25,173 nucleotides of DNA, taken from positions 1 through 25,173 of the IMG/VR virus record IMGVR_UViG_3300032240_000796. One strand, 5' to 3'. The notes under the pieces were generated by a model. The model searched no databases and was not told the origin of the DNA. It saw nothing but the letters and a program-made list of their open reading frames with translations. The stretch's first letter is position 1, and each line of letters opens with the position of its first letter. The translations under genes were made by a program, and so were the position numbers. Source of the DNA: a virus. Positions 128 to 3,637 of this stretch are shown here, in pieces.

Positions 128-2323
128 TTAATAGACACCCATTCGTGAACCATAATAACGATTCAAACTATTCTCTTCATTTCGAATTGGCGATCTCAAT
201 GGAGTAGTTTGTTGAGTAGTATTATTAATATTAGTTGGTGCGTTAACAACAGCAGTACCACCAGATTTCTTATTGTCCATATCATCACGTGCATTTGCAG
301 TTTCCGCAGAAGCACCGTAAACCTGATCACCCATGGCTGTTGTAGCTGGACCCATTGATGCAGCTTCTTTCGCTGCCTGATCCTTAGCAATTAGTCCACC
401 AATAGCAGAAGCATCACCACCTTTTGCGGCAATATCTTTTGCTTTCATGTAAGTAGATTTATCAACAGAAACTGGTTTACCAGTCGTTGGATCTGTTAAA
501 GTATATTCATCCTTACCAAACCAACCACCACTCTTACGTTGACCAAGGGATGAAGAATAATCTGAAGTAGTTTTACCTTCTTTATCTCTTGTTTCTTTAG
601 AACTATCAGCAACAAAACTTTCTGTTTGAGTTCCTTTACCAGCAATCATTCTACCCAACCATGATGAACCAAGTGCAGACTTTTCAACAGTTACACCTTT
701 ATTAAAAGTTCTACTACTTTCACCAGTGCTACTATCTTTACTTTCTAGATTTTCTTGAGTCCCAACCTTTTCCTCACCTCCAACAACACCAACTCCATTA
801 TAGCCAACTCCAACATTACGTTTAGCCAAATCCTGACCAATTTTTGTGCCACTGAACCAGTTACTGACACCATTACCAATTTCAGATGCTTTACCTGCAA
901 TTGCGGCACCAGCAGCAGATGCTTTATCACCTACCCAACCAGCACCAGATTTAATACCACCCCATGCAGATTCACCCATGGATTTCATTGAGTCCCAGAT
1001 TCCTGTAGTTTTAGCAGTAGATGGTGCCTGAGTAGGTGTAGCTACAATATTAGATACAGTTGGAGAAACTTCTGGAGCAGAGATTGCTGATTGAACTTCT
1101 GCAGGAACTTCTGACTTCATTAGATCATTACCACTTACACTCTTTTTCTTTTTAAGTGTAACACCATTTGCATCAACATATGTTTCTGCTTTAGTGGCAG
1201 ACGCAGTAGTTGGAACTGCTTCTGGAGTAGCTGCACCACCCTCAGTCTGTAATTTCATTCGTTTATTATATTCTTCTGCGTCAATTTTACCAGAAGCCAT
1301 GTCTTGCATATTCTTTTGTTCTGGTGATAGTTTAGCAGCTTCTTGTTCTTTGGTTTCACCAAAACCAAGTAAACTTTTAACACCCTGATATGCTTTTACA
1401 CCATATTTACCAGCAACTCCGCCAACGAAACCACCAGCCTTAGAACCAAGCCACATACCAGCAGCAGTTCCGAGTGGACCAAGTGCAGAACCAGCAATAC
1501 CACCAATGGCTGCACCAGCAGCAGTACCAGCAGTAGAACCAAGAGATTCTCCCTGAAGTACGTTACCTTCGCTACGAGTTAGTGCACCAGATTTAACATT
1601 CTCTTCAACTTCATTCGACTTATCAATATTGCCCATGACGTCATTGACTACGTTGAATCCAGCAAGACCAAGTCCAGCAATACCAGCTAATGGACCAGCA
1701 CGAGAAATCATTCCAAGACCACCACGTGCAGCACCAGCAATTTTACCACCGACACCTTTAATACCACCACCAACTAAATCTTTACCAGCACCGAGTAGAC
1801 TTGATATTCCACCCATAATTCCGCCACCACCAGCTGCACCCTCTTTAAAAGTAGCACCAAGTTTAGATAAACCTTCATCAGTGGCTTTCTTTAATCCAGA
1901 AATACCCTCAATCATTTTATTAAGCAATACATGCTGTTCTTTGTCAGCATCTGCTTTGGCTTTATCGGCTTCTTGTTGATTTTCTGTTTCTTCAGTACCA
2001 GCTATTAATGCTGCGCCAGCATTTTGAGGCATGCTACCAATAGAAGCAGTTAATGATTTCTCTAAAGTCTTAGAGATGTTTAACATTATATTTTTAATCT
2101 CAAGAAGAGTTTCCTGCATTTTACTTTCATGCTTCTCTTGAGATTTGGCAATTTCCTCTGTACGAACTAATTCTTTTTCACCCATTGCGTCAAGAGCAAC
2201 TATAACTTTTTGAATGTTTGCGTCTTCTTTAGCAAACTTCTCTTGGTTTGCTGCTGTTTTGTTTAGACGCTGCAATTGAATAACTGCTTCGTTAAAGGAA
2301 ACTACGTTGTTAGTATTAGCCAT
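128..2323 (-). CDS. Tail tape-measure-like protein (gp29-type position)
   Basis: This 731-residue protein probably sets tail length and lies inside the tail tube. Residues about 15-95 are charged and heptad-like, suggesting a coiled coil. Residues about 163-228 and 255-320 are rich in Gly, Ala and large hydrophobics in glycine-zipper style, as in the membrane-active stretches of many tape measures. The rest is Ser/Thr/Gly/Lys-rich, and the C-terminus is Asn-rich and ends RYYGSRMGVY. It follows gp26 and its -1 frame extension directly; the ATG overlaps the end of that frame (CAGTATGGCTAA), so translation is probably coupled. T4 gp29 is 590 residues, so this one is longer. The assignment rests on composition and on position after the gp26 chaperone; a different hub or virion protein remains possible. 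Confidence 0.7.
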   Translation of the reverse strand: MANTNNVVSFNEAVIQLQRLNKTAANQEKFAKEDANIQKVIVALDAMGEKELVRTEEIAKSQEKHESKMQETLLEIKNIMLNISKTLEKSLTASIGSMPQNAGAALIAGTEETENQQEADKAKADADKEQHVLLNKMIEGISGLKKATDEGLSKLGATFKEGAAGGGGIMGGISSLLGAGKDLVGGGIKGVGGKIAGAARGGLGMISRAGPLAGIAGLGLAGFNVVNDVMGNIDKSNEVEENVKSGALTRSEGNVLQGESLGSTAGTAAGAAIGGIAGSALGPLGTAAGMWLGSKAGGFVGGVAGKYGVKAYQGVKSLLGFGETKEQEAAKLSPEQKNMQDMASGKIDAEEYNKRMKLQTEGGAATPEAVPTTASATKAETYVDANGVTLKKKKSVSGNDLMKSEVPAEVQSAISAPEVSPTVSNIVATPTQAPSTAKTTGIWDSMKSMGESAWGGIKSGAGWVGDKASAAGAAIAGKASEIGNGVSNWFSGTKIGQDLAKRNVGVGYNGVGVVGGEEKVGTQENLESKDSSTGESSRTFNKGVTVEKSALGSSWLGRMIAGKGTQTESFVADSSKETRDKEGKTTSDYSSSLGQRKSGGWFGKDEYTLTDPTTGKPVSVDKSTYMKAKDIAAKGGDASAIGGLIAKDQAAKEAASMGPATTAMGDQVYGASAETANARDDMDNKKSGGTAVVNAPTNINNTTQQTTPLRSPIRNEENSLNRYYGSRMGVY

Positions 2324-2504
2324 ACTGTTTGCTCTCTAATCTTTGTTTTTCTGCTTCTAAGTGTTGTAATAGCATTCCAATATAAACTTCTCTTTCGAAC
2401 GGGATCATATTTTCTAATTCCGTCAGGCTGTATTTGTGGTACTGCATCATCGCGAAATTCGTTTTATAATAGTTAGCCAAGCTATCATGACAAAGCAGTA
2501 CTAG
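2316..2504 (-). CDS. -1 frame extension of gp26 (frameshift product, 62 codons)
   Basis: In the -1 frame relative to gp26 the codons from CTA (2504-2502) to GGC (2321-2319) are open, ending at TAA 2318-2316. A shift just before the gp26 stop adds 62 residues, giving a fusion of 298. The segment is protein-like: it includes LANYYKTNFAMM, HKYSLTELENMIPFERE and a helical, charged end. About 20 of the residues lie upstream of the only good in-frame ATG pair (2450-2445), and no Shine-Dalgarno precedes that pair. A frameshift therefore explains the open frame better than a separate gene. The short-plus-extended chaperone pair ahead of a tape measure mirrors lambda G/GT. The position also recalls T4 gene 51 (hub assembly catalyst), but homology cannot be shown here. 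Confidence 0.75.
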   Translation of the reverse strand, partial: LVLLCHDSLANYYKTNFAMMQYHKYSLTELENMIPFEREVYIGMLLQHLEAEKQRLESKQYG

Positions 2505-3211
2505 AAAAAATTTTGGACGCCCTCCAACATTGTTCTATTATGTCCACCACATGCTGGGCAATCAAACTCAACTAGATGCTGAAACTTAGGCATCGTAGCA
2601 AAGAAAGATTCCAGTTTATCGAATTGTTCTTTGGTAAGGTTCTCAACGAACTCTCTTAGTTCTGCTTTAGTCTGTTCTTTAGCATGGAACAATTCTGTAT
2701 CAGTATAGATCGTTTCGATACAATCGATAATGATATCAATTACGTTATCTGCATCGTCAAACCCTTTATCGATCTTCTTAAGAATATCAAGAGTTGGATA
2801 CTTCATGATCACACCAACATTATCAAACAGACCGATCTTATTAGTATGGTCTTTATTCTTAGTAACTTCTAATTGGGATACATCAAGTCTAAGAGTATAT
2901 TTGTTTTTCTCATTAGTGCAGTGACCGCATGTAAACACTAGGTCAGAATACTCACCAACAGACTTCGCTCGAATTTGAGAGAAGATATATTCAAGATCAA
3001 ATATTGCCAGATTATTAACTTCAATCTTATCAGAAACACATGATTGAATAACCTGCTTCAAAGTACTAACCATTACATCTAGGTCTTCACTTTGTTGAGC
3101 CAGCATTAATGCCTTTTCATCTTTGACCAAAAATGGTCGATACTTAATTTCTTTGCCAGTTGAAGGAATCTTCAACGAATACACTGGCGTGTTTTGTAAT
3201 GGTAAACCCAT
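2501..3211 (-). CDS. gp26: Baseplate hub assembly protein gp26-like (T4_baseplate family)
   Basis: This 236-residue protein resembles the T4 gp26 family, which acts in baseplate hub assembly; T4 gp26 is 208 residues. The N-terminus (PVYSLKIPSTGKEIKYRPFLVKDEK) and the long helical middle fit the family. Two CxxC pairs, C95-H-C98 and C218-A-C221, could bind one zinc between the halves of the protein. The start is supported by AGGAG eight bases upstream, within the last codons of gp16, which stops three bases before this ATG. The stop TAG sits directly on a slippery sequence, so a fraction of ribosomes is expected to make a 298-residue form. By analogy with lambda G/GT the two forms may load and chaperone the tape measure encoded next. 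Confidence 0.88.
   Translation of the reverse strand: MGLPLQNTPVYSLKIPSTGKEIKYRPFLVKDEKALMLAQQSEDLDVMVSTLKQVIQSCVSDKIEVNNLAIFDLEYIFSQIRAKSVGEYSDLVFTCGHCTNEKNKYTLRLDVSQLEVTKNKDHTNKIGLFDNVGVIMKYPTLDILKKIDKGFDDADNVIDIIIDCIETIYTDTELFHAKEQTKAELREFVENLTKEQFDKLESFFATMPKFQHLVEFDCPACGGHNRTMLEGVQNFF
2504..2525 (-). promoter_or_regulatory. Candidate programmed -1 frameshift signal at the gp26 stop
   Basis: Read on the minus strand, the end of gp26 is CAA AAT TTT TTC TAG. It contains two overlapping X XXY YYZ heptamers: A AAT TTT (2513-2507) and T TTT TTC (2510-2504). A GGAGG at 2525-2521 lies seven bases before the slippery run, close to where Shine-Dalgarno-like stimulators sit in known bacterial -1 sites such as dnaX. 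Only a weak 4-bp hairpin (TAGC TTG GCTA, about 2485-2475) is seen downstream. Confidence 0.75.
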
Positions 3212-3214
3212 AAT

Positions 3215-3637
3215 TTACTTCTCCTTATTCATATTCTGTATCATTTTCGCTAACTCACTAGTACTACCAACAAAGATAGCATTATTCGTCACCTTAGTAT
3301 CTTTATTCTTAGGTGCATCCAATTTGGCTTTTTGTTGATGTAAGTCCATGAGTTGTTGGTTTACATCAGCCAGTTGTTTCATAAGATTACCCACAACTTC
3401 AAAGGCACGTGGATGTTCAGATTGTTTAGCAACTTCCAGAGCATGCATTAATGCATTCTGTCCAGTTGTTAATAATTCACGAAGGTTGTTACGAGTTATA
3501 TCGTAATCATTGTCAATCTTAGTTTCCGACGTTTCAATTATTTCGCCAGTTGCTGCATCAACTATTTCACCTTCAACAGAAGTCTTTGTTATAACTGGTG
3601 TATCAAAGACTTCAGATAATCTATCATCAATTTTCAT
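3215..3637 (-). CDS. gp16: Terminase small subunit gp16
   Basis: This 140-residue protein matches the gp16 DNA-packaging regulator of T4-like phages (164 in T4), which forms rings, recognises DNA and stimulates the gp17 motor. Diagnostic stretches are DYDITRNNLRELLTTGQNAL, AKQSEHPRAFEVVGNLMKQL and, near the C-terminus, NNAIFVGSTSELAKMIQNM. Residues about 50-105 form the long helical coiled-coil core. The N-terminal DIRLSEVFDT-like segment is acidic. It starts two bases after the holin-like gene stops and ends three bases before gp26, so it is expressed with tail genes rather than next to gp17, which is not in the window. Confidence 0.9.
   Translation of the reverse strand: MKIDDRLSEVFDTPVITKTSVEGEIVDAATGEIIETSETKIDNDYDITRNNLRELLTTGQNALMHALEVAKQSEHPRAFEVVGNLMKQLADVNQQLMDLHQQKAKLDAPKNKDTKVTNNAIFVGSTSELAKMIQNMNKEK

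Follow-up and report, generated by a model that had tools for sequence, protein, structure and literature searches.

A likely programmed -1 frameshift at the end of gp26 in an uncultivated T4-like phage

A programmed -1 frameshift very likely occurs at the 3' end of gp26 in the 25,173-base virus record IMGVR_UViG_3300032240_000796, which we call the window. The evidence for this is read from the sequence: the open frames, a conserved slip site, an extension that evolves under selection, homologues in T4 (gp26 and gp51) and the gene order. With high confidence, we interpret the locus as one in which a T4-like phage encodes its two tail assembly chaperones by means of the shift. A sequence-only reading of the same DNA had proposed a frameshift that joins gp26 to an extension in the position of gp51, in the manner of lambda G/GT, and its proposal is supported by conservation, by selection and by a match of the extension to phrog_634. 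Frameshifted chaperones in T4-like phages were already described in 2022, and the window is a further example. The present analysis adds one more uncultivated member, locates the slip site precisely and shows both frames without the heptamer in an Ackermannviridae branch.

Layout of the gp26 locus

The gp26 gene lies on the minus strand at positions 2501..3211 and encodes the short form of 236 residues (TAC-N), which falls within the gp26 family by its matches to PF12322 (E 3.3e-62) and phrog_150 (E 4.4e-63). Its 3' end reads GAG GGC GTC CAA AAT TTT TTC TAG on that strand. The slippery heptamer T TTT TTC occupies 2504..2510, the zero-frame stop TAG follows directly 3' at 2501..2503, and a GGAGG resembling a Shine-Dalgarno (SD) element stands at 2521..2525, 10 nt 5' of the heptamer. 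Read on from 2504, the -1 frame is open for 62 codons to a TAA at 2318-2316 (minus strand, 2316..2504), and this extension, the gp51 or TAC-C part, would bring the long form to 298 residues, with GVQNFF running directly into LVLLCHDSLA. The end of gp26 (AAT TTT TTC TAG) and the 62-codon frame closing with a TAA at 2316, both described in the sequence-only reading, were confirmed on the sequence. The same reading had placed GGAGG seven bases upstream: the element is there, seven being the distance to A AAT TTT and 10 nt the distance to T TTT TTC.

Within the extension, in-frame ATGs are found at 2450/2447 (extension codons 19/20), and neither is preceded by a clear SD, in agreement with the earlier claim that the internal ATG has no ribosome site. 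The next gene on the minus strand is a 731-aa ORF (128..2323); its first 8 nt, ATG included, are shared with the end of the extension (2316-2323). We call it the putative tape measure gene on the basis of position and size; no family matched it in the Pfam/PHROG profile comparison. In the relatives, the next long ORF mostly begins no more than about 14 nt to either side of the extension stop. Stop/start overlaps like this one are common in phage operons.

The neighbouring genes in the window are T4-like and encode the small terminase, tail tube, DNA end protector, head closure, tube cap and wedge proteins. The small terminase subunit gene (minus strand, 3215-3637; phrog_445, E 1.5e-38) lies directly 5' of gp26; KVP40, HTVC008M and Sinorhizobium phiN3 have the tail tube gene at that place.

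Conservation of the slip site and selection on the extension

Relatives of the locus were gathered from IMG/VR and GenBank, giving 173 distinct loci for comparison; neither a very diverse alignment nor the Atu_ph04 protein, used as queries, returned any loci. The sequence-only reading had asked whether the slip site and the -1 frame are conserved together, and the answer is strongly positive, as 165 of the 173 loci carry an in-frame T TTT TTC (124 loci), T TTT TTT (40) or T TTT TTG (1). In these 165 loci the heptamer lies 0-3 codons from the gp26 stop, and wherever the contig is long enough the -1 frame beyond it is open for about 55-66 codons. The carriers include KVP40, Ah1, S13, P-SSM2, Syn1 and Pelagibacter HTVC008M as well as Caulobacter Cr30, Sinorhizobium phiN3, Agrobacterium Atu_ph04 and Stenotrophomonas Mendera. 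An in-frame T TTT TTY is found at none of the 6,773 codon positions of the 17 other ORFs of the window. Because it is absent from those ORFs and kept in nearly all relatives, the slip site is more than a chance occurrence.

The first codon of the Phe pair is always TTT, against 69% of the Phe codons elsewhere in the same genes, and the codon 5' of the pair, mostly AGT, TCT, GAT or GCT in the 165 loci, always has T as its third base; outside the site these codons do vary within the gene. The relatives are linked by descent and not independent, so that such codon statistics overstate the evidence. Two heptamers had originally been put forward. T TTT TTC stands, and A AAT TTT was rejected as a shift site since it is not conserved, AAT preceding the Phe pair in 32 of the 165 loci.

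The upstream element also recurs. At the Glu of an LEG motif the codon is GAG in 98 of the 132 relatives that have Glu there, compared with 28% of Glu codons elsewhere (a contrast to which the shared descent of the relatives likewise lends too much weight), and this choice yields GAGG or GGAGG about 10 nt 5' of the heptamer. Downstream, RNAalifold found no stimulatory structure common to the relatives, and the corresponding region of the window is not more stable than its shuffles (z -0.33 and +0.69). When 160 relatives were folded one by one, the mean z was about -1.4 and, for a 50-nt stretch, 60 of them fell below -2; subgroups of the relatives may have hairpins.

The extension itself evolves as a protein. 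Across the relatives, pN/pS over extension codons 1-17 is 0.22 in the -1 frame versus 1.50 and 1.36 in the other frames, and over codons 18-45 it is 0.20, which bears out the earlier description of the extension as protein-like both before and after its ATG. These ratios indicate, at the level of sequence, that selection on the encoded protein already acts at the first codon of the extension.

The same values bear on the alternative of an independent small gene, gp51, begun at the internal ATG. An in-frame ATG pair does exist at the right place, and P-SSM2, Syn1, HTVC008M and other deposits annotate a separate 'baseplate hub assembly catalyst' CDS. A separate start nevertheless fits the data poorly, because the 17 codons 5' of the ATG are selected like the rest and because part of the family has I, V, L, H or T instead of Met at extension codon 20; the lack of a clear SD adds to this, and the invariant T TTT TTY would be left unexplained. 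We consider it very unlikely. That the extension might be a degenerate relic, or open merely by chance, has only its short length to recommend it; the phrog_634 match (E 5.4e-27), the protein-level selection and the presence of the extension in nearly all relatives refute this idea, to which we give practically no credence.

Long forms could also in principle come from transcriptional slippage on the T's instead of a shift by the ribosome, as each of the 165 heptamer loci has six or more T's in a row. The runs are short, though, for a process that in bacteria usually needs about nine T's, and 124 of the 165 sites end in TTC. The conserved codon phase of T TTT TTY and the SD-like element about 10 nt 5' fit ribosomal slippage. 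We regard a transcriptional origin as highly improbable.

Counted against the frameshift model are the remaining eight of the 173 loci, which keep both frames without a heptamer. All of them belong to the Ackermannviridae branch (Cba120 and relatives, and Vibrio phage D524, whose record names no family and which we placed there by the gp26-domain tree). The gp26 homologues of this branch, which end at about 3285-3301 in locus L103 and about 3050-3075 in L105 and are also represented in L203-L217, have the junction GAR ATT TTC ATT TAA with a conserved -1 extension beginning LIFEIDLLSYF and no X XXY YYZ heptamer; in D524 the junction is TCA CTT TTC AAG TAA TGG, with an overlapping ATG. The Ackermannviridae branch may use a different slip site, for example G ATT TTC, or re-initiation. 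The slip site of T7 gene 10, for comparison, is G GTT TTC.

The near-invariant T TTT TTY offers annotators a simple rule, and the long form is wrongly annotated in many deposited cyanophage genomes. Many such records (for example L093, L095 and L002) either leave the extension without a CDS or annotate a short gp51 that starts at an internal ATG, and no joined CDS of gp26 and extension was seen in the annotated regions of the deposited relatives examined.

Proposed mechanism and comparison with known systems

We infer as follows that ribosomes shift in vivo, how often they do so and what the products do as chaperones. Most ribosomes would stop at the TAG and release the 236-residue gp26 (TAC-N), while a minority, with their tRNAs on T TTT TTC, would slip back by one base and make the 298-residue TAC-NC, predicted to end in a gp51-type helical domain. 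The GGAGG 10 nt 5' of the site and the stop codon directly 3' of it possibly help slippage. If the two forms act as lambda gpG and gpGT do, the short one would coat the tape measure protein and the long one would bring in the tail tube subunit. Shifted ribosomes that finish the extension could also re-initiate at the putative tape measure ATG, coupling synthesis of the long-form chaperone and of the tape measure in a fixed ratio; we think this unlikely, and if it is true the frameshift also sets the output of the tape measure.

The lambda slip site in G/T is G GGA AAG, different from the T TTT TTC of the window. In its upstream element the locus resembles E. coli dnaX, in which an SD-like element likewise stands 10 nt 5' of the slip site, A AAA AAG. 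The dnaX signal also includes a downstream stem-loop, whereas the relatives of the window have no downstream structure in common. In organization, lambda gpG/gpGT, with a short form and a -1 frameshifted long form directly 5' of the tape measure (PMC5009743), resembles our locus, where the forms are predicted and the tape measure gene is putative.

Within the T4-like phages, tail assembly chaperone genes were reportedly identified by Vladimirov, Gautam and Davidson (Virology 2022). A passage of the Adele paper that cites Vladimirov et al. (2022) mentions poly-T slip sites in the TAC-N genes of T4-like phages, and a passage of the PRFect paper (PMC10885494) citing the same study states that in some T4-like phages the frameshift is replaced by two genes, one short and one longer and fused. 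Our locus shares with the chaperones of Vladimirov et al. (2022) the gene family, the place before the tape measure gene (putative in the window) and the predicted short and long forms, and we see no difference in kind. In their survey, Atkins et al. (2016; PMC5009743) describe the G-T shift as conserved 'except T4'.

Short and long versions in T4

Both T4 gp26 (208 aa) and T4 gp51 (249 aa) match PF12322 from end to end. Of the two, only T4 gp51 goes on through the extension: it matches phrog_150 over 13-280 of its 282 positions, and T4 gp26 matches only the part that corresponds to the short form. Residues 147-246 of T4 gp51 match phrog_634 (E 1.2e-23), the 'baseplate hub assembly catalyst' (gp51) family that the extension in the window also matches. 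By these sequence matches, T4 has two genes for homologous versions of one protein, gp26 being the short version and gp51 the long one. The sequence-only reading had held that T4 encodes 26 and 51 separately; the two genes are indeed there, on opposite strands, and they are not merely separate. Thus T4 has a short gene and a longer gene, and the window phage has one gene with a slip site. The frameshift is reportedly conserved in several T4-like groups, with T4 said to use genes 26 and 51, and our results support the published view of T4 as a phage with two genes in place of the frameshift of its relatives.

The AF2 model of the window gp26 has a pLDDT of 84.9, and the model of a T4-type gp51 (pLDDT 84.4) shows the same order of elements as the gp26 model and four more C-terminal helices. 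In the PDB, the gp26 model comes closest to the tail assembly chaperone of HK97 (2OB9), a weak match at a Foldseek E of 0.51; superposition on 2OB9 gives Z 7.9, below Z 8, with 84 residues aligned at 4.3 Å. The modelled fold is suggestive of a likeness to the HK97 tail assembly chaperone and is not proof of it.

In an unrooted tree of the gp26 domain, T4-type gp26 and gp51 group together, apart from all frameshift genes (99/97); despite their labels, the rows gp26_L230 and gp26_L232 contain copies of gp51. This grouping is compatible with a duplication in the T4 lineage. In the Pseudotevenvirus Enterobacter phage EC-F2 (L102, 3501-4792), the long gp51-type and short gp26-type genes adjoin on the same strand, unlike in T4.
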